DNA of 64,000 nucleotides, taken from contig CM049316.1 in assembly GCA_026874595.1 (NCBI GenBank), positions 54,135,676 to 54,199,675 on the forward strand, read 5' to 3'. This DNA comes from Sipunculus nudus (lineage: Eukaryota; Annelida; Sipuncula; Golfingiida; Sipunculidae). Positions within the stretch are counted from its first letter, which is position 1, and each line of letters opens with the position of its first letter. Shown here piece after piece: positions 11,600 through 62,662 of the stretch. The notes beneath the pieces are model-generated. The model did no database searches. It was not told where the DNA came from and worked only from the letters and a program-made list of their open reading frames with translations. The position numbers were made by a program, and so were the translations under genes.

Positions 11600-12140
11600 G
11601 AATTTGATCAAAGCTCTTTTGAAGAGGCAAGGACCTTTATATATGTTCGTTATGGAAGAGACACAAGACTTCTTGTTTCTGTTCGGAGAGGCAAAAGACA
11701 AAATACCTGTTTCTGATGTATAGGCACAAGACAATCTCCCTGTTCTATATGTAGAGGCACAAGACAATCTTCCTTTTCCTAATGAAAAGGGACAAGACAA
11801 TCTTCCTGTCCCAAGACAATCTTACTGTTCCTGATGTAGAGAAACAAGACAATCTCACTGTTCCTGGTGAAAAGGCACGAGACAATCTTATCTTCCTGTT
11901 CTTAAAGTAGAGGCACAAGACAATCTTCCTGTTTCTAATGAAGAGGCACAAGACAAGGCGCACAGTCCTGTCCCTGATGTAAAGCCACAAGACAATCTTC
12001 CTGTTCTCAATGTAGAGGCAAAAGACAAACATTAAAAAACCTACCTTGACCTGATGAAGAGGCATTAAATTAACCCTAATGTTCCTGATTTAACGCTTCC
12101 AGGTAACCCGTCTTGTTCCTGATGAAGATTCAGCCTTCCT
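11600..12140 (+). repeat. Decayed 33-bp minisatellite
   Basis: About 13 diverged units follow the pattern GAGGCACAAGACAATCTTCCTGTTCCTGATGTA (33 bases). Several units have lost or gained a few bases, for example the 24-base unit near 11797 and the insertion near 11893. Read on the plus strand a full unit encodes the 11-residue repeat EAQDNLPVPDV. TAG and TGA codons and frame-breaking indels interrupt any continuous frame. The minus-strand frames over the array (RNRKIVLCLYI-type repeats) are hydrophobic mirror readings. Confidence 0.8.
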
Positions 12141-12255
12141 TCCCGTTGAAGGAAAACCAATACATCTTTCCTGTGTATAACATCATGCTAAGTGATTGTT
12201 ACCAATCTATAGATATTTATTCTTCTGTTTTTAACAACCAGTAGCACTTGTCTGG

Positions 12256-12282
12256 CTCTCTCTCTCTCTCTCTCTCTCTCTC
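12256..12282. repeat. (CT)n microsatellite
   Basis: A perfect CT tract immediately left of the DIRS-type element. Confidence 0.95.
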
Positions 12283-12288
12283 AACACC

Positions 12289-12470
12289 CGTTTTATTACG
12301 TGAATCTTAATGTGAGCGTTATCTGTATTAATGCGAATTTTCTCCGTTAGGAGTTTACGCCAGAGTAAGGCAACAAACTTTCCCTTATTGGGCCTTTTAT
12401 CGCCCATTTCGTCTTATCCTGGTATTATCTAGGTCACCCTTCCGGCCCTAAGATTCACTTTTTCTTCTGG
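12289..12470. repeat. DIRS left inverted terminal repeat
   Basis: The reverse complement of this stretch aligns with 16343-16508 at high identity. The outermost 17 or so bases (ACCCGTTTTATTACGTG) differ from the right terminus but are matched, in complement, by the ICR at about 16238-16258. Confidence 0.85.
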
Positions 12471-14454
12471 CGTCAGCCATGATGGAAATCTGAACCCGCC
12501 TCTGGCGAGTTAACGTCGTCCGTTTGTTGTTCGTACTTTTTAGTTTGCCAACAAAACTGTAAGTATTCTTTATATTTCCCTACGTCCCCTGTTTTGTTCA
12601 GTCTGTGAGTCTATGATACCATTTGGTTTCTCATCCCACTTATTCTGGCTGTCGCTCCGTGCTGATACTTGTCACGGTCCGTGGAACCCCTGTTATTTTT
12701 GTCAAGCGTACTCCATTGACATGTGGGCTTGTTTCAAACACTGCCCCACTCTTGTAACTATTCGGACATTTATCCCATGTCTCCTGTTCATTCTCGGGTG
12801 AATCTGGGGGGGGGGGGGGGCGTCCTCTGATCATCGCGACTCTGTGGTTTGCGGAAACCTTCAGTTAATCCGTCTTGTTTTAACCATGTAAACAACTCCC
12901 GTGCCATGTGGTACTTTCACGTGTCTACTCTTTAAGTACTATTAGCACTAACTCAACCCCGCTTGACTTCGGGTGACTCCGGTCGTCCTTGCAAGTCTAC
13001 AGCCTTATACTGGATCTTTATGTTACTATTTACGGACGGACTTAGACGTTCTGTCTACGTCCGTTCATATTACTTCAATTTGATACGGGTCTGAGGATGT
13101 TCCGGCCTGTGCTGTTTCCGTGTCGACACACACTTCTTTTTCAGTAACGACGCCTTGTCAGCCTCAAGTTTCGTCTGCTGATCGTGCCAGATTCAAGAAG
13201 ATTCCCAGGAGCCGCTGGTCCTGTCTTCACTGCGTCCTCTGCCGTGTATGACTGCGCCCGGTTCTCCCGGGTCCGCCGGCTCCCCGCCGGTTTTTCTTTC
13301 AGGCTGTTCCTGTCAGTTGCTGTTCCAGTGTCGAAGCCCGCTCCCTTTTCATTTTCAGCGTCGTTGGCGTCTCCGGTTCTGTCTACTGGTCATTATGGTT
13401 CTAGGTCTCGCCGGTGCGTTCCGGTTTCACTACTTTTCTCGCCGTCTTATGCCGTTCCGGTAGGCGCGGTGTCTACGTCTGTTCCTGACCAGCAGCCTGC
13501 TCCTGTGTTACGGTATTTTTTCATGATGTGACCCCAGCCTGGTCTTTGACCATTGGTTGGTGGATCACACCGGCGCCCGGCCTGTCGCTTTCGGAAGTAC
13601 TTGCTGCTAGACAAGGAAGCTCGTTCTTTTTGGGTGTCCTGTTCGGACGGCCCGCCGTGTAGACGTCTCCAGACTCAGCCTGCTGCCTGCACGGATACGG
13701 GGTTCTATTGAATCCCGTCACGCTCCAGTTTCTTGCATCCGCACAACCGGCTTGCATGGAATAACCGGAGCAGCCCATCTCCTGAAGAACATCATGCTAC
13801 AGTTCACGGGAATATCTCGACCTCTACAGTTGCTACGGTTCTTCCTGGATCCTCTCCACCTTGGTCTCTGGGGACACCCGATTGTAACCGTGCGCTGTAC
13901 TTCCATCTACAAACCTGGCAGCTGTTCCATCTACTGCTATGAGGATCGAGTCCGGCCTTACTCAACCTTTTGTGCAGGTAAGTCTCTACTCGGCTACAGC
14001 ACATGTCACCGTCCATCCGCTGACTGATCTTGAAGGGCTGGGCAATCAGGCGGCAGGCATACGTTATGCTCTACGCCGTCACGTGCCTCTTATCATTTAC
14101 TCAGGAACCTGTCACTATCACAGATATTGAGAGTCTTCCGCACATGATGGCGCCGAACTCCAACACATTCTCTGTCGTATTTTAGAGACTTGTTTTTATT
14201 TCTTATTCGACGTGCAGGCTGTTTGCGCTATTACGCATCTTCAGGACTGCTTACTTCCGACCTGTCGGGATTACATACAACCTTTCCGGGTTTCCTCCTG
14301 TTTGGAGGGCAACTACGCAACTCGTTCGATCGCGCCCTAGACCGCGCTGATCGGGAAACCCGATTGCGCTCATCTCAACCTTCGTCTAGTACCTCGGTCC
14401 GTCCTATTGGATATGGTTCTGCCCCTGCTAGGCAGTCACTTCCTCGCCTCCGGC

Positions 14455-14530
14455 TTCTGTGGCTCTGTGATAGAGCATTGGTCTCAAAGCCGGGAGATCG
14501 TGAGTTCGAATCTACGCCTGGGTGCTAGAT
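14455..14530 (+). other. tRNA-like segment inside the DIRS element
   Basis: GTGGCTCTGTGATAGAGCATTGG, then CTCAAAGCCGGGAGATCG, then GAGTTCGAATC resembles D-arm, anticodon-arm and T-arm of a tRNA. The B box is good (GAGTTCGAATC), but the T-stem and acceptor do not pair. It is probably a SINE head inserted in the DIRS relic or a chance tRNA-like relic, not a tRNA gene. Confidence 0.4.
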
Positions 14531-14689
14531 TTCAAGGTGCTCGCTCTGCAGGCTTAAAGGGAAGGCCGTGTTTTACTCACAACTGACCCAGTCCCGGCCT
14601 CTGCAGTAGTCCCCGGGCTTGGTTGAAGGCAGGATGTAAAATTAGAGGAATCGTGTAGTCTGAAACGGGATAATATTCTCCAGATACGG

Positions 14690-15250
14690 TGCCAGCTCTG
14701 ACAACGGCTGTGTCCTTCCTGTCCGGCAGTGGGTCTTCGTTCGGGTGCTATCCTTTAGAAGTGATTTTTCCCGGAAATCTATTGTTTCGGTCGGCGCCCG
14801 CCTCCCTGTTCTTTTCGGGCCCATGGCGCCTTTCACTTCGTCCCGTTCGCCCGATGAATTGGACGTTCAAATTCTTCCGTCGTCACAACCGTATCTTCGG
14901 TTTACTTATGGGTCTCCCGTATATCAGTTCCGCGCCCTACCGTTCGGATTGTATGTGACCCGGTGGTTGATAACCATGACCACATGGTCACTCCCACTCT
15001 CCGATACTCTCAGACAAATCGCTCTCAACTACTAAAATCATGGTTTCTTTCATTACTACGGAACCTGGGTGTTTCTCGTCAATATGAAAACCTCCACTTC
15101 CGCCCACCGAGTCTATTCAGTTCTTGGCGTGGTCTTCTTTGTCGTGACAGGGATCGCATCCCTTCCTCGCGAATTTGGGCTCTTATCCGTTCTCGGATTC
15201 GTAAGTTTCCGGCAATCCACCACGTCGACTCTCGTGCGGCTGCCTTCACT
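14690..15250 (+). pseudogene. DIRS reverse transcriptase remnant
   Basis: Plus-strand frames keep a DIRS/Ngaro-like RT block, YLRFTYGSPVYQFRALPFGL, at about 14890-14950. A later block, LGVFLVNMKTSTSAHRVYSVLG-like, spans about 15060-15130 and corresponds to the FLVNxEKSxxxPxQxxxFLG region downstream of the catalytic core. The intervening YxDD-like catalytic segment is missing or unreadable near 14960-15050. Several frameshifts separate the blocks. Confidence 0.7.
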
Positions 15251-15424
15251 CAACTAGTTGGCCCCGTTTATTCCGCTGAGCCGCCTCTATTTCCGTCCTG
15301 TTCATCGCTCTTTTTGGATCAAACCCTTTCAACGTGGGGTCCAATCGTCCCACGTTGCTCCCGCTTCGTCTCGCCTGGTACTTGCTCCGTCCATGGATGG
15401 TTATTCCGTTCCTTATTCAAGGAA

Positions 15425-15735
15425 TCCCTTCTTCCGCGAGATCGAATGCTCCATATTCACGGACGCTTCTCTACTCGGGTGGGGAGCTCACATGACCGAT
15501 CTCCGGATTTCGGCCTCTGGTCCCCCTCCGAGCGTCTCCTTCCCATCACTGTGCTGGAACTCCGGGCAATCCGTCGGACATTCGCTCAATATACATGCGC
15601 TTCTTCGACCGTCATATTGTCGGACGTCACTACGGTGGTGACATATCTCAAAATACAGAGCAGTACCCGGTCTCCCTCACTACTTCGGGAGACATATTGT
15701 TTGAACTATGTATTCCGCTGCGGGCGGCTCTCCGC
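15425..15735 (+). pseudogene. DIRS RNase H remnant
   Basis: FTDASLLGWGAHM at about 15455-15495 is the first catalytic-Asp motif of DIRS-type RNase H. After a frameshift near 15510 comes GLWSPSERLLPITVLELRAI, which holds the Glu helix. SDVTTVVTYL and then STRSPSLLRET (about 15610-15690) hold the third acidic residue and the typical QGGTRSPSL-like stretch. The order and spacing match DIRS polyproteins. It is inactive because the reading frame is split. Confidence 0.75.
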
Positions 15736-16069
15736 GCATGTCATGTTCCCGGCGTCTACACAGGGCGGTGTTACATTCCCTCGGGTCTCTGTAATTCGAT
15801 CTGTTCGTTTTTCCGTCCCCGACGGCCCTCAATCGTCCGCCGAGTATTTCTGTTCACCCCGACAGTCCCGGAAATCTTAGATGTCTTTGTCTTTTTTACT
15901 TCGTGGCGCACAATTGACATACACATGTCTATGAGGTTATCGTGCTGCGTTGTTATCCGTTTTACGTCCGTTTTACGTCCCCGTTTTGGTCACGTTCGCA
16001 TTCTTAAATCGTCAACTCGTGCCAGATTTCTGAAGTCTTCTCGTCCTCGCTTTAATTCCCCTTCTTAGC

Positions 16070-17569: not shown

Positions 17570-18270
17570 GACAAAATACTGTATTTCTGAAGAGAGTAAT
17601 GGCCGCTTTTGTTCTTAAAGGTTACCCCTACCCCTTGGTGGTTAATCATGTTATACAAGCATTTTAGTCAAGTTGCCAGTAAGGGGTACCTTTGAATGGT
17701 CTATATTATAAATTTTTTTTATGAATTTTTGATTGTAGGGATCCACTGATACTTTTGAGTTGGGTTTTGCTCACGACGACTTTGGGCAACTTTCGTAATA
17801 TGCAAATGAAGGCCGCCATTGTCGATAATTCTATTTTCTTCCATGTCTGAAGAAGTAACCATGATAATTGTGTGAATATTGTGTCTAGACCTAGGTTTTC
17901 ATGGTCAAAGATTCAAATAAAACACTAATAATAACGTTTTACTTTATATTTTAAATTGTAATACGCAAATTAGGGCCGCCATTGACGATAATTCTATTTT
18001 CTTCGATATCTCAAGAACTAACCATGATAATTGTGGGAATATTGTGTCTAGAACGAGGTTTTCATTGTCAAAGATACAAATGAAACCATATTAACAACGG
18101 TTAAGTTCATATTTTACATTTTTAATATGTAAATTAATGCCGCCATTGATGAAAAGTCAACCTTCCTCAATATCTGAAAAGCTTACCATTGTAATTGGTC
18201 GAACATTGTGTCTAAACTTAGGTTTTAATGGTCAAAGATTCAAATGAAACCAGTGGGTTAACTAAAATTT
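17570..18270. repeat. Foldback left arm, three tandem units
   Basis: Units are marked by GCCGCCATTG at about 17811, 17972 and 18139 (periods about 161 and 168). Each also carries a TCTGAA/TCAAGAA..TAACCATGATAATTG block and the TCTAGACC.AGGTTTTCATGG block. Confidence 0.8.
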
Positions 18271-19444
18271 ATTATGCAAATTTTGATGGCATTACATGCA
18301 ATTAAAACATAGGTTTTCATCTTCAAAGATTGTTAAAGATCATCGGAACAAAACTTGATGTTAAGTTTTTTGTATATATAAATTGCACTATTTGGCTAAG
18401 AATGTACTTATTCCCGACAATTTTATACTTTTTTGTAAGATTTTATAAATTTTCCATAAAATCGAGAGTGGCAGCACTGAACACAAAATACCAATTTATA
18501 GATTATCTACTTAACTTGGCCAATATATATGTTATATGGAGAGTAAGTCAAGATATTAGATTTTTTAGATTATTAGGATGTTAGTATATTTTACCATTTT
18601 GCTACTGTTTTGGGTGACATTAGTTTATAAAAAAAACACAATCCCACAGGGACCAGTTATTATCATGATAAATAATGATAGTTGCATGGTTCAGAAACAA
18701 TTATCAGATCAGTCAGCAGTACACTGGAATCTATTCAACCATGCTTTGCTCAAGAATAGTCTTTCAGGGAAAACTAAATAGATATTTTTGCAGATACAAT
18801 GTATGAACCTTACGTTTTTGTTAAAATGATACAGTCGCTGTAAATTTTAAATTCTTCCACCAACAATATATATGGCATATATAACAGGAGATACTCTACG
18901 CTTAGGATTTAAATTAAGTATATATCATTAAAACAGTTATGTACATATAGATTTTATATCAAATTTTTGAAGAGGCAATTAATACTTCTGCTGAAAAGTT
19001 CCGCTGAAAAAAATACTTTGATAAGACCAGGTACACTATCTAATTATATGTCGGCCATAGAGGGCAGTTAATGTGTTAATTCTGGCTTCTGCATGTACAC
19101 CTAAAACAGACAGGTGCACGTACATGCTCTGGTATTTTCTACTTAATTATTCTAAAAAGAATAACCTATACTTAAATACTTTTATAAATACTTTTAAATA
19201 CTTTATAAATTAACGGATAAACTATAGTAGTTAGAGTGTGCATGGACATCAAAATGTGTAATCACAATGATTGGATCGCATTTTGCCATCGTTTCTTCAA
19301 AGGTAAAGACGTTAATCCTCGTATACCAAGATAAACCACTCAGATTAACCACTCAGGGTTAGGGATGACCTTCAAACACAAAAGCGGTAATTTCTCTCTA
19401 CAGAAATAAAGTATTGCGTCAAATTTTTTTAAACAACTTATTTC

Positions 19445-20125
19445 AGTTAACAAAGATTTCACATGGTTTCATTTGATTCTTTGACCATTAAATCCTAGAT
19501 TAGACACAAAGTTCGACCAATTATCATGGTTAGTTTTTCAGATATTGAGGAAGGTAGACTTTTCATCAATGGCGGCTCTAATTTACATATTAAAATTTAA
19601 AATATGGACTTGACCATTGTTAATATGGTTTCATTTGTATCTTTTGCCATGAAAACCTAGGTCTAGACACAATATTCGACCAATTAACATGGTTAGTTCT
19701 TCAGATATCCTCAATGGCGGTCCTTATTTGCATATTAATATTAAAAATATGAAGTTAAACGTTACTATTATGATTTTATTTGAATCTTTGACCATGAAAA
19801 CCTGGGTCTAGACATAATATTCGACCAATTATCATGGTTACTTCTTGAGATATCGAAGAAAATAGAATTATCGTCAATGGCGGCCCTAATTTGCATATTA
19901 CAAAAGTTGACCAAAATCGTCGTGACCACAACCCTACTTAAAAATATCAGTAGACTCCTACTATCACAAATTCATAAAAAAATTATAATATAGACCATTC
20001 AAAGGTATCCCTTACTGGCAACTCTACTAAAATGCTCGTATCCCGTTATTTAAAATTAAGGGGTAGGGGTTACCTTTAAGTACAAGAGCGGCCATATCTC
20101 TCTCCAGAAATAAAGTATTGTTATA
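19445..20125. repeat. Foldback right arm, three tandem units in inverse order
   Basis: The complements of the left-arm unit markers occur as CAATGGCGG at about 19568, 19712 and 19876. The outermost 60 bases complement the left outer end. Confidence 0.8.
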
Positions 20126-41893: not shown

Positions 41894-44014
41894 TAATAAT
41901 AATAATAATGAATAGTACTTATATAGCGCTGAACTCCAAGATCAGGCTCACAGCGCTTGCATTTTTACACATCAGTTACACAATATATAAATATATAAGC
42001 ACACTCACACACACACACACACACACACCTATAGTCACCCACACACACCCGAGATTACATGTATGGTAAATGTTGCTAATTACAAAATGCCTGCAGAAAT
42101 AGGTATGTTTTAAGATTTGTCTTAAAAGTATTGATAGTGGGGGATTTTCTAAGTTCAGCTGGAAGGGAATTCCAGATCTTAGGGGCAATATAACTGAAAG
42201 AACGTTCACCGACTTTCGTACGGCACTTAGGCAATATTAGAAGACTTTCGTTAGAAGAGCGTAGGGTGCGCACCGGCCGATAAATACATAGTTTTGACGA
42301 GAAGATATGGTGGCAGTGATCCATCAAAATATCTATAAACAAGGACTGCGAGTTTGTATTGTATCCGATGCTGAACTGGCAGCCAGTGGAGTTCCTTAAG
42401 TAACGGCGTTACATGGTCCCTTTTTCGTTTTTTAAGAATAACACGGGCTGCATTATTTTGAAGATTTGTTCTAACGGTAAACCTACCAAAATTGAATTAC
42501 AATAATCAAGGCGTGATGTAATAGTTGCACAGACTAGCCTAGCACAAACGCTGGAGGTTAGGAAACGCCGGATGGAAGCAATACGTCGGAGTTCGAGAAA
42601 AACTGCACGACACACGCTATTAATATGATCATGCATGGAAAGTGTTGATCAATTTTCACACCGAGGTATTTCACAGAAGTCTGGAAAGTGACATTACTAC
42701 CACAAACGCTAAGGGGGGCGTTGTTAATCATCTGAAGACAGGAGTGAGAGCCAACTGGCATAACTTCGGTCTTATCAGTATTCAGTTTAAGTTTGTTGCT
42801 GGTCATCCAAGAGAGGACATCTTCAATACAAATCTGTATACTCAACTGTACAGAACTAAATTGGTCCGGTTCGTTACTTTAAGATAGCTCGGTGTCATCC
42901 GCATACTTATGAAAAGCACAATTATGAGCAGTTATAATATCAGACAAAGGTTGTGAATATAAAGTGAAAAGTACAGGCCCCAACACGGAATCCTGGGGGA
43001 CACCATACAATATAGAGCATGGGTCAGACAATCTACCGTCAACAATAACAGCTTGGCAGCGGTCTCAGATATGAGGAAAACCATGAAAGTACTGTGTCAT
43101 GTATACCAAATGTCAGTTGAAGTCTTTTAAGCAATATTGAATGATCTAGCGTGTCAAACGCCGCGCTTAGGTCTAACAAAGCTATCAGAGAAACGTGGTT
43201 CTTGTCTGTCGCCGTAAGAAGACCATCCAAAACACTTAACACAGCGGTCTCTGTGCTGTGATGCCTTCTGTAAGCCGATTGATGGATTTCAATTAAATTA
43301 TTGTTATGAAGATGACATTGTAACTGCTTTAGAACAATCTTTTCAAGGATTTTTTAAACAAATGGAAGGTTAGAGACTGGCCTATAATTTTTTAAATCAT
43401 TCGGATCTAACCCTTGCTTTTTCAACAGTGGAGTCACTACAGCGTGTTTAAATTGAGACGGAACTGAACCTGTAGAGAGAGACATGTTAACAATTGAAGT
43501 AATCAGTGGAACAATATCATTAATGCACTGCTTCAAAAGAGCCGTGGGCATTGGGTCGAGTGTAGAGCTTTTGGTTGGCGACGCCATTATGATGCTAATG
43601 ATATCCTGATCAGTTACTGGGGCAAAACAGGACAATGAGGGGCCATCGTAAACATTAAATTTAGGGGGCGAACATGCAGCAGAGTCAAGTTCAAGACGAA
43701 TGCGTTCAATCTTCGCCGAGAAATAATCACAAAAGCTGTTTGGGAGGTCACAGCGAGGCAGATGAGTTGGAAGACGTGTCGTTCGAGACTTCCCCAAAAG
43801 TTCACTGGTAACAGAGAACAGCTTCCTGGATGAAGAACTTGTGGAAATCATGTCCATGTAGAACTTGCTCTTCGTACAATGAATTACAGCTTTCACCGCA
43901 GCCCTTTCACTGACGAAAATTTCTCTATGGACAGACTTTATTATTGGGTCACATGTGAACTGGTGCCTTACCATTTTGCGTTGACCTCTGAGCTTTCTTC
44001 TCAGCAGTGCGTCC
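41894..44014 (-). mobile_element. CR1/L2-like LINE, RT to 3' end
   Basis: On the minus strand, blocks occur in the normal order. Linker: KMVRHQFTCDPIIKSVHREIF. Domain 0/1: SSTLDPMPTALLKQCI and VVTPLLKKQGLDPNDLKNYRPVSNLPF (about 43440-43355). RT: LIALLDLSAAFDTLDHSILL (about 43225-43165). Catalytic FHKYADDTELS (YADD at 42894-42905). Then LNTDKTEVMPVGS and VKYLGVKID. C-terminus: ERSFSYIAPKIWNSLPAELR and FKTNLKTYLF (about 42215-42100). The 3' UTR ends with GCGCTATATAAGTACTATTCATT followed by an ATT tail at 41895-41909. YADD is intact, but stops and frameshifts (for example near 43350 and 42640) break the ORF. The 5' part, with the endonuclease, is missing. Confidence 0.85.
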
Positions 44015-44229
44015 CAGGGGCGGATCCAGGATTTAGGAAAAGGGGGGGGGTCCAACCCAGGAGGACTAATGAAAATCCTAAAAAAAAGGTCATCACGTCT
44101 GGAAAAGGGGGGGTCCAGGCCCCAAAATTACGTCTAAAACCCCTTTAAAAAGGTTGCTTCGGGTGAAAAAGGGGGGGGGGGGGGGGGTCCGGACCCCCTG
44201 GACCCCCCCCCCCCCTGGATCCGCTTCTG
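44015..44229. mobile_element. G/C-tract MITE with 5-bp target duplication, copy 1
   Basis: Ends are CAGGGGCGGATCCAGG and CCTGGATCCGCTTCTG, flanked on both sides by CGTCC (44010-44014 and 44230-44234). The interior holds long G and C tracts and no coding capacity. It sits at the 5' border of the LINE remnant. Confidence 0.8.
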
Positions 44230-53481: not shown

Positions 53482-53760
53482 AATTCCGAATTGATAATAA
53501 TTTTGATAATACCTTAGTCTGAAATGCTTTAATCTAATGTTAAAGCCTGTCCCTTGTAGTTAGAAGAGGCTTAAACAGGGGGTTTGGTTTATTTCAATAT
53601 CAATATTCGATCAAAATGTTTAGCCGATGACCTTCTTAGATCCTCCCAGAGTAATAACTTCGATTACTAATTTTTTTTAGTGCCCCTGTTTACGCTATAT
53701 CTCAACCATGGCATGTTTTCAGATACTGACTTTTGTGTAGAAAATTATTACACCCTTTAA

Positions 53761-54205
53761 GCCGGCCTTCCATCTACCGAATTTTCAGCCGAGTTTTCGC
53801 CAGCATGAAAAATCATTAGGAGCGGTAGATGTGAGGATGCTGTGCGCGGGATTTTTTTTTAAATCTGGCAGGAAAAATTGGCTGCAAAATTCTTGACAAT
53901 GTCAAACATTTCCCACCGGATAAAAATAGATTTTCCGGAAAATTCGGTAGATGTAATGACGGAACCGAAGAAAATCGGCTGATTTACAACCTACCTTTTC
54001 TTCTTTTTTATTATTTCTGACCCCAATAATAATCCTGGAGACGTTATTATAGAAGTGACCAAAAAAGACCGGAGAAATCTGTTGACCTAAAGGATATATC
54101 GGTAAGTGTGCGGGTACTCACCGGCCGGGGAGACTTGTAGATATAACCAGTCGGTTAAAAAGAATCGGTATAAAATAAAAAAAAATCGGTAGATGGACGG
54201 CCGGC
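53761..54205 (+). mobile_element. TTAA-flanked MITE, family B, copy 1 (no array)
   Basis: Terminal inverted repeats GCCGGCCTTCCATCTACCGA (53761-53780) and the complement of 54186-54205 agree at 19 of 20 bases. The left flank is TTAA and the right flank is TTGT, an eroded TTAA. Internal landmarks are GCGGTAGATGTGAGGATGCTGTG (about 53824-53846), then an AAATCTGGCAGGAAAAATTGGC block, and GGCCGGGGAGACTTGTA near the right end. All recur in the copy at 61959-62658. No coding capacity is seen. TTAA use suggests piggyBac-type mobilisation. Confidence 0.85.
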
Positions 54206-54209
54206 TTGT

Positions 54210-57055: not shown

Positions 57056-57059
57056 GCTA

Positions 57060-59022
57060 GACACAGGTGAGCTGGCATCAAAAGACACAGGTGAACTGGC
57101 ATCACAAGACACAGGTGAGCTGGCATCACAACACTGGTGAACTGGCATCACAAGACACAGTTGAGCTGGCATTACAAGACACAGGTGAACTGGCATCACA
57201 AGACACAGTTGAGCTGGCACCACAAGACACAACCGAACTGGCATCACAAGACACAGGTGAGCTGACATCACAAGACACAGGTGAGCTTGCATCACAAGAC
57301 ACAGGTGAGCTTGCATCAAAAGACGCTAGTGAACTGGCATCACAAGACACAGGTGAGCTAGCATCACAAGACACAGGTGAGGTGGCTTCACAAGACACAA
57401 GTGAGCTGGCATCACAAGACACAGGTGAGCTTGCATCACAAGACACAGGTGAGCTTGCATCAAAAGACGCTAGTGAATTGGCATCACAAGACACAGGTGA
57501 GCTGGCATCACAAGACACAGGTGAGCTGGCATCACAAGGCACAGGTGAGCTGGCTTCACAAGACACAAGTGAGCTGGCATCACAAGACACAACCGAACAG
57601 GCATCACAAGACACAGAAGAGCTGGCATCACAAGACACAGGTGAGCTGACATCACAAAACAGGTGAGCTGACATCACAAGACGCAGGTGAGCTGACATCA
57701 CAAGACACAGGTGAGCTGGCATCACAAGACACAGGTAAGCTGGCACCACAAGACACAGGTGAGCTGGCATCACAAGACACAGGTAAGCTGGCACCACAAG
57801 ACACAAGTGAACTGGCACCACAAGACACAAGTGAACTGGCATCACAAAACACATGTGAACTGGCATCACAAGACACAGGTGAGCTGACATCACAAGACAC
57901 AGGTGAGCTGGCATCACAAGACACAAGTGAACTGGCATCACAAGACACATGTGAACTGGCATCACAAGACACAGGTGAGCTGACATCACAATACACAGGT
58001 GAGCTTGCATCACAAGACACAAGTGAACTGGCATCACAAGACACAGGTGAACTGGTATCACAAGACACAGGTGAGTTGACATCACAAGACAGGTGAGCTG
58101 GAATCACAAGACACAGGTGAGCTGGCATCATAAGACACAAATGAACCAGCATCACAAGACAAAGGTGAACTGGCATCACAAGACACAGGGGAGCTGACAT
58201 CACAAGACACAGGTGAGCTGGAATCACAAGACACAGGTGAGCTGGCATCACAAGACACAAGTTAACTGGCATCACAAGACACAGGTGAACTGGCATCACA
58301 AGACACAGGTGAGCTGACATCACAAGACACTGGTGAGCTGGCATCACAAGACACAAGTGAACTGGCATCTCAAGACACAAGTGTACTGGCATCACAAAAC
58401 ACATGTGAACTGGCATCACAAGACACAGTTGAGCTGACATCACAAGACACAGGTGACCTGGTATCACAAGACACAGGTGAGCTGGCATAGCAAGACACAG
58501 GTGGCCCGGCATCACAAGAAACAGGTGAACTGGAATCACAAGACACAGGTGAGCTGGCATCACAAGACACAGGTGAGTTGACATCGCAGGACACAGGTGA
58601 GCTGGCATCACAAGGCACAAGTGAACGGGCATCACAAGACACAGGTGAACTGGCATCACAAGACACTAGTGAGCTGGCATCACAAGACACAGGTGAGCTG
58701 ACATCACAAGACACAGGTGAACTGGCATCACAAGACACAGGTGAGCTGGCATCACAAGACACAGGTGAGCTGACATCACAAGACACAGGTGAACTGGCAT
58801 CACAGGACACAGATGAGCTGGCATCACAAGACACAGGTGAGCTGACATCACAAGACACAGGTGAGCTGGCATCACAAGACACAAGTGAACCGGCATCACT
58901 AGACACAGTTGAACTAGCATCACAAGACACAGGTGAACTGGCATCACAAGACACAGCTGAGCTGGCATCACAAGACATAGGTGGGCTGACATCACAAGCC
59001 ACAGGTGAGCTGGCATCTCAGA
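57060..59022 (+). repeat. 2-kb minisatellite, 24-bp unit, about 80 copies
   Basis: The unit is ACAGGTGAGCTGGCATCACAAGAC with common variants (GAACTGGC, GAGCTGACATCA, ACAAGTGA, GAGCTTGCATCAAAAGACGC). Three units lack two bases (near 57127, 57656 and 58090), which shifts frame. A multiple-of-three period keeps nearly all frames open. On the plus strand the unit reads GELASQDT (57133-57666 and 58578-59042), but plus-frame stops occur near 58127, 58265 and 58489. On the minus strand it reads MPAHLCLV or SCDASSPV. Related longer blocks, such as the pair at about 57310 and 57460 carrying GCATCAAAAGACGCTAGTGAA, indicate higher-order duplication. A coding role is not supported. Confidence 0.9.
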
Positions 59023-61609: not shown

Positions 61610-61958
61610 AAACATTAAATCTAAACATACACGAGCCGGGGCGGCTATGGAAATATAAGAATCATGAAAAATGAGCTTTTGGACGAGGCTCTCGTGTCGG
61701 GACAGAGTGGTGGGAGGCTTTATTGTCCGCCGAGGAAGGGAAATCCGGCGGAATTACCATTGAACTGTCTTCCATATAGCGATTTATTATTTCATATCCA
61801 TGACATAGGCGCATTTAGAGAAGTATATAAAAAGGGATATACCATTGGATCTCCTGGAGTGGTCCTATTGGAAAAGGATCCAAAAGGAGCACAGATTCAA
61901 TTTTGTTATGTGATTTATTACTTACATCGCGGCTCATCCTACTACTTTTTGCTATTAA

Positions 61959-62658
61959 GCCGGTCTCCCATCTTCCGAATCTTAAAAGCAGACGGGAAAA
62001 ATTTACAAGTCTCACGGGCCGGCGAGGGCCGGAGAATTGTCGATTTTGCATGCACACCACCAGATTTTTCTGACCATTTTGGTCGCTTTTGGTTCGTCAT
62101 TGGAATGCAATTGTTGTCATGATCGCTGAAATTCGATTCCGTCGTAACCTCTGCCAATTTTTCCTGCCGGATTTAAACAAAAATCCGACAGGCACATTCT
62201 CATATCACCGACCGGCACACTCTCACATCTAGCGACCGGCACACCCTCACATCTACCGGCCGGCACACCCTCACATCTAGCGACCGGCACACCCTCACAT
62301 CTACCGGCCGACACACCCTCACATCTAGCGGCCGGCAGACCCTCACATCTAGCGGCCGGCAGACCCTCACATCTAGCGGCCGGCACACCCTTACATCTAC
62401 CGGCCGGCACACCCTCACATCTACCGGCCGGCACACCCTCACATCTAGCGACCGGCACACCCTCACATCTACCGGCCGGCACACCCTCACATCTACCGGC
62501 CGACACACCCTCACATCTAGCGGCCGGCAGACCCTCACATCTAGCGGCCGGCAGACCCTCACATCTAGCGGCCGGCACACCCTTACATCTACCGGCCGGC
62601 ACACCCTCACATCACCCTCACTCCGGCCGGCAAAAGAATCAGTAGATTCGAGGCCGGC
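61959..62658 (-). mobile_element. TTAA-flanked MITE, family B, copy 2 (with 24-bp array)
   Basis: Intact TTAA on both sides (61955-61958 and 62659-62662). On the minus strand it begins GCCGGCCTCGAATCTACTGA. It then carries the 24-bp array, then GGATTTTTGTTTAAATCCGG and CAGGAAAAATTGGC, near-identical to copy 1 at 53761-54205. After a diverged middle it shares GTCAGAAAAATCTGGTGG and GCCGGCCCGTGAGACTTGTAA with copy 1, and it ends in the complementary TIR. The only major difference is the array, which replaces the single GGTAGATGTGAGGATGCTGTG segment of copy 1. Confidence 0.85.
62195..62625 (-). repeat. 24-bp minisatellite with 192-bp higher-order period, inside the MITE
   Basis: About 17 units of TAGATGTGAGGGTGTGCCGGCCGG (minus strand). 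Unit variants (GCGACCGG, ACCGGCCGG, ACCGGCCGA, CAGACC, CCCTTAC, read on plus) recur in order, so the five-unit run at about 62297-62415 is repeated at about 62489-62607, eight units (192 bases) later. The unit resembles copy 1's GGTAGATGTGAGGATGCTGTG. The Arg/Cys/Gly/Val frames over it are array artefacts. Confidence 0.85.
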
Positions 62659-62662
62659 TTAA

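Follow-up and report, generated by a model that had tools for sequence, protein, structure and literature searches.

Two copies of one element in the window

The window (the whole stretch of Sipunculus nudus DNA that was analysed, 64 kb) contains two copies of a short element with inverted ends, of which copy 2 carries a tandem array at the place where copy 1 has a single internal segment. The elements and their shared parts are the following:

61957..62660, minus (copy 1 taken as plus): array-bearing MITE copy 2, 704 nt, ends AAGCCGG... / ...CCGGCTT
53759..54207, plus: MITE copy 1 of the same family, without the array, 449 nt
61957..61983, plus: left terminal inverted repeat of copy 2, from inverted-repeat pairing
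62634..62660, minus: right terminal inverted repeat of copy 2, from inverted-repeat pairing
53759..53785, plus: left terminal inverted repeat of copy 1, 27 nt, 93% complementary
54181..54207, minus: right terminal inverted repeat of copy 1, 27 nt, 93% complementary
53823..53847, minus: the one internal segment in copy 1, corresponding to the array unit when the copies are aligned
62153..62186, minus: conserved block adjoining the array in copy 2, 34 nt, 94% identity to 53849-53882
53849..53882, plus: the same conserved block in copy 1, 94% identity to 62153-62186

With the TTAA counted in, the arms of copy 2 (61955-61983 and 62634-62662) are 29 nt long and 79% complementary, and the pattern of the terminal inverted repeat, allowing at most three mismatches, was matched three times in the window as against a mean of 0.00 in 100 shuffles. 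The two copies lie in opposite orientation, which corrects an earlier note. With the array cut to one unit, copy 1 aligned to the reversed copy 2 with a global score of −30 (shuffle background: mean −253, sd 14.7, best −208, n = 200) and an identity of 77% (224 of 291 aligned columns). Aligned to the unreversed copy 2 it scored −177 (shuffle mean −263.5, best −211), and this residual likeness is what inverted ends would give. The preliminary description had proposed that the two copies are related, and the ends and internal blocks common to both, together with an alignment far above shuffles, bear this out. It had also placed TTAA on the flanks of both, which is true of both ends of copy 2 and of the left end only of copy 1, where the right flank reads TTGT.

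Copy 1 has eight open frames of at least 40 aa (43–71 aa), and a search of these frames for a transposase gave no Pfam match for seven and a match below the cut-off for one; among the five frames of copy 2, four had Pfam matches only below the cut-off and one had none. An Rfam search of the whole window at the gathering threshold returned no match. The element is thus short, ended by inverted repeats, present in many copies and apparently non-coding, i.e., a MITE, a non-autonomous DNA transposon. A reading as a Helitron was set aside because the ends of the element are inverted.

The array and its repeated block

The array of copy 2 was resolved into the following parts:

62187..62210, plus: worn edge unit of the array, aligning with the single segment of copy 1 (53823-53847)
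62211..62618, plus: 17 tandem 24-bp units, of types ABCBDEEFGCBGDEEFH, the last unit damaged
62236..62421, plus: duplicated stretch, first copy, 186 nt
62404..62613, plus: duplicated stretch, second copy, matching the first at all 186 nt and longer by a 24-nt unit

TRF reported a period of 24 with 17.7 copies and 92% matches over 62191-62613, and the earlier count of about 17 tandem units in place of the one segment of copy 1 is therefore accurate, at 17 plus the worn edge unit. When the array was compared with itself at whole-unit lags, the longest exact match was 138 bases at lag 192, followed by 75 bases at lag 168. None of 5000 permutations of the unit order (last unit fixed) reached the 138-base match, and a four-label repeat, judged on the unit labels alone, was reached in 152 of 20000 permutations. 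In simulations of growth by single units, which represent a simple model, a 138-base match at a lag of at least 120 arose in 23 of 3964 arrays with 6–10 unit types (0/16, 2/270, 18/1545 and 3/2133 for the four mutation rates). The array thus holds a block duplication, either of seven units with one gained or of eight units with one lost. This means that the block repeat previously described 192 bases on is real, while its size is seven or eight units and not clearly eight; the proposed order of growth, by units and then by a block, agrees with the 186-nt repeat, the permutations and the simulations. Since the duplicated block is identical at 186 of 186 positions and the two element copies at only 77%, the most recent growth of the array probably postdates the element by far, although gene conversion, as a later homogenisation, could also yield identical blocks. 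The length of the array rests on one assembly and may depend on it.

The strand of the array folds better than all of 100 shuffles (z −6.5); this fits slippage without proving it, and many repeats that contain palindromic pieces would be expected to do the same. A coding array was also considered, 24 being a multiple of three and several frames being open, and was rejected as Pfam found nothing above its cut-offs.

An old and dispersed family

The genome that was searched comprises 153 contigs totalling 1.43 Gb. Searching it with copy 1 gave 457 first-look candidates; 40 of these were scored and every one matched, in 47 rows of which seven are weaker second pieces. The 40 include copy 1 and lack copy 2, and the 39 besides copy 1 have 71–83% identity to it. 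The copy 2 query yielded 30 scored matches, one of them copy 2 itself; the remaining 29 do not extend into the array portion of the query, in a search that skips simple repeats. The family is therefore old and dispersed. No relatives outside the genome were found in the viral contig scans, the genome contig scans or the phage search.

From each search 30 loci were fetched, with copy 2 in one set and copy 1 in the other, and their middle parts were scanned with TRF (score at least 40, period at most 200). A 24-bp array was found in 0 of the 29 other loci from the copy 2 search and in 0 of the 29 from the copy 1 search, so the case named beforehand as telling against the proposal, in which the other members all carry arrays at unrelated positions, is not what the fetched relatives look like. 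One family member (L057:1742-1871) has a 48-bp tandem repeat of 2.6 copies whose unit is unlike the 24-bp one. In two pairs of loci, L040 and L042 (~283 kb apart on contig C3) and L034 and L036 (~816 kb apart on C10), sequence is shared beyond family likeness, and both pairs look like segmental duplications.

A single internal segment in many relatives

The best-kept form of the internal segment is GCCGGCAGCACCCTCACATCTACCG, of 25 bases. Its occurrence was counted in the 58 other loci after L036 and L042 had been dropped as near-duplicates (n = 56), where a long match was defined as at least 19 nt with a score of at least 22, the flank background being at most 19. There was one long match in 32 of the 56 loci, none in 24 and two in not a single locus; L053 has two short partial matches close together and no array. 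In nine of the 24 loci that lack a long match (L037, L039, L040, L041, L053, L054, L055, L057 and L059) the match to copy 1 begins past the segment, and the remaining ones reflect either loss or divergence. For 21 of the 32 segment-bearing loci an element end could be located on the side where one was expected, 37–70 nt from the segment (51–70 nt in 19 of the 21), the corresponding distance in copy 1 being 64 nt. One relative (L038) contains the segment exactly, and with at most one mismatch it occurs at 16 places in the genome on seven contigs (reversed control: 0), the nearest two of which are ~440 kb apart.

Most segment-bearing relatives have the 25-nt form, whereas the array units share a common 24-nt form with one base fewer. 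Alignment of the copies, which had been suggested as a check, makes the segment of copy 1 the counterpart of the edge unit of the array. The claim that an internal segment of the MITE became the array is upheld by its occupying the same place as in copy 1 and by the similar distance to the end in 21 relatives. Because one match is seen in 32 of 56 loci, two in none, and 24-bp arrays in none, one segment per element is most likely the ancestral state and the array of copy 2 the derived one. CCG stands directly before the segment in 12 of the 32 relatives. Downstream of the single segment these 32 loci often have ATCCTACCGA, in which a second TACCGA directly follows the segment's own TACCG.

Element ends and target flank

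The family ends, read by eye, run AAGCCGGCCTCCCATCTACCGATTTTT, and the element ends are in AAGCCGGCC form. The two bases before AAGCC were TA in 16, TT in 10 and TG in 4 of 36 ends in one set, among which are the four ends belonging to copies 1 and 2, and TA in 11, TT in 9 and TG in 5 of 35 ends in the other, which includes the two ends of copy 1 as well as near-duplicate loci. Both ends could be placed in 20 copies, among which TT stands at both ends only in copy 2 and TA at both ends in three (L005, L030 and L060). A genome search for the exact end gave only three matches, preceded once each by TC, TT and TA. Since TT should dominate if TTAA were the target, and TA is commoner in both sets of ends, TTAA is disfavoured as the target of the family, and the preliminary description of it as TTAA-flanked does not hold. 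Tc1/mariner elements duplicate a TA target on insertion. Judged from these flanks, a TA target appears likelier than TTAA, although only three of the 20 copies have TA on both sides. A MITE with a TTAA target (piggyBac or Kolobok) was rejected, paired TT occurring in only 1 of 20 copies, namely copy 2. Kolobok elements have RR ends, and T2 elements AGGRR ends, next to TTAA according to the description in PMC6004289; a Kolobok or T2-MITE reading was likewise discarded, as copy 2 has GCCGG beside TTAA.

The array unit and the element ends have GCCGGC and CATCTACCG in common, and all 11 occurrences of CATCTACCG on both strands of the window fall within the two copies. Among 2000 shuffles of each end, as good a match to the unit was given by 6 for the left and 1 for the right end of copy 1, and by 42 for the left and 49 for the right end of copy 2. 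This likeness between unit and ends may date from early in the family's history. For the repeats of Galileo, it has been proposed that extra binding sites help recognition, as set out in part of PMC3688188. By analogy, there is a slim chance that the array multiplies a motif resembling a transposase recognition site, which could make copy 2 a decoy or a stronger substrate for the transposase; that the motif bearing CATCTACCG binds transposase is a guess.

Origin of the array

We consider it very probable that, in an old MITE copy, the internal segment multiplied in place to ~18 units and that a block of these was later duplicated. Copy 2 would be an old member of a dispersed non-autonomous family, and the growth of its array most likely followed insertion. 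The single segment GCCGGCAGCACCCTCACATCTACCG would have been duplicated in tandem in place, minus one base, and slippage or unequal exchange would have multiplied it until it numbered ~18 units. One further duplication would then have copied a stretch of seven or eight of these units, with one unit gained or lost. The first duplication could have been primed by the CCG that stands at either edge of the segment, but since only 12 of the 32 relatives have CCG directly before it, this is a guess. The family, its many one-segment members, the repeated block and the lack of a second such array at the stringency used were observed directly; how the events were ordered, that they came later than insertion, and that slippage or unequal exchange drove them, we infer.

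The preliminary description had gone further and seen here a transposon acting as the seed of a satellite, a reading under which arrays of the unit would have left the element and spread. The array does sit inside an element and does contain a repeated block, as such a seed might; however, a dimer of the array unit (34 places over two units, at most three mismatches) had 16 matches in the genome, all 16 of them in the one array of copy 2 (control: 0), and a dimer of the ancestral segment (35 bases, at most three mismatches) had none, which makes seeding highly improbable. The search for free-standing arrays of the same unit, which had been proposed as a check, found none in the genome at up to three mismatches in 34, a reach at which the genome pattern counts for repeats are lower bounds. 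At this stringency no second array was found in the 1.43 Gb genome, and none lay outside the element or at many places, by which we would have recognised a satellite; no sign was seen of the array having been spread by transposition. As far as the searches reach, the array is confined to a single place and has seeded no satellite.

Two other histories would make the array older than, or foreign to, the single segment. Unequal exchange can shorten arrays as well as lengthen them, and the ancestral element could accordingly have borne an array that shrank to one unit in copy 1 and the others; this is very unlikely, as all of the 32 loci with one long match would have to have shrunk to exactly one, with no locus keeping two, and as the relatives mostly have the 25-nt segment and the array units the 24-nt form. 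Capture of a pre-existing minisatellite by the element, as has been proposed for miDNA4 in the account given by a review (PMC12628747), deserves scarcely any credence here, since what is repeated is the family's own segment, which sits in copy 2 where copy 1 has it and lies about as far from the end in 21 relatives, and since the dimer search, at up to three mismatches, located no such array elsewhere in the genome. Growth in place from a single segment thus remains our preferred reading.

Comparison with known systems

Tandem repeats derived from internal MITE segments have already been published, as described in parts of the literature on Xmix/Xstir (PMC6004289, PMC12628747) and miDNA4 (PMC12628747, PMC9659126), and further cases are listed in portions of two reviews (PMC6947457, PMC9659126). 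The element miDNA4, a Tc1/mariner MITE of Xenopus (Scalvenzi and Pollet; PMC12628747, PMC9659126), is described there as holding an internal monomer either singly or as an array of variable number, and the S. nudus family resembles it in having an internal segment that is single or in a tandem array. For miDNA4, however, these accounts propose capture of a pre-existing repeat and describe satellite arrays, whereas here there is one array, made of the family's own segment. In the Xmix MITE of Xenopus, the Xstir repeats come from an internal segment (Hikosaka and Kawahara 2004, as reported in PMC6004289 and PMC12628747), and in copy 2, too, an internal segment of a MITE gave rise to tandem repeats. 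According to the same reports Xmix is a T2-MITE with a TTAA target, AGGRR ends and a large repeat family, in contrast to the ends of AAGCCGGC seen here and to the single array, for which no repeat family was found.

Tetris is a foldback element, and Tetris/TIR-220 of Drosophila virilis is described in part of PMC4079207 as having tandem repeats in units of ~220 bp and long terminal repeats. Together with Galileo (PMC3688188, in part) it shares with copy 2 the presence, inside a transposon, of tandem repeats that resemble terminal-repeat sequence. In Tetris and Galileo, however, the repeats lie in long terminal repeats, and those of Galileo hold tested transposase sites, whereas the unit of copy 2 measures 24 bp and any transposase binding by it is a guess. 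MITE-like elements linked with tandem repeats are also reported from bivalves, namely the pearl elements and, in the clam Donax trunculus, tandem repeat-containing MITEs.

The array of copy 2 is thus a new, single-place instance of a published type of event. Its value lies in being a clean early-stage snapshot of a process that is usually described after spread: many relatives hold a single segment, one copy has expanded and undergone a block duplication, and a satellite was not found. This suggests that an array borne by a transposon need not spread.

Other features of the window

A second 24-bp array occupies 57059-59017 and consists of 82 units (78 of exactly 24 nt) with the consensus GACACAGGTGAGCTGGCATCACAA. 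It can be read as DTGELASQ, with four units of other length and three stop-making changes. Kinship between it and the MITE unit was rejected, as shuffles equalled the score in 840 of 2000 and 244 of 2000 cases on the two strands.

A Pfam search of five longer frames of the window gave no match. Among the open frames, a 257-aa one on the minus strand (43354-44127) looks by eye like part of a retroelement protein and has no Pfam match, and a 340-aa one, also without a Pfam match, lies in 12001-16000, a step with a GC content of 0.505 and an AT skew of −0.268, compared with a GC content of 0.343–0.441 in the other 4-kb steps. Tandem repeats with periods of 33, 71 and 85 lie at 11674-12028. Finally, 17575-20120 holds tandem repeats of 145–163 bp within long inverted arms, whose pairs measure 287 nt (86%) and 144 nt (85%), an arrangement like that of a foldback element whose arms carry repeats.
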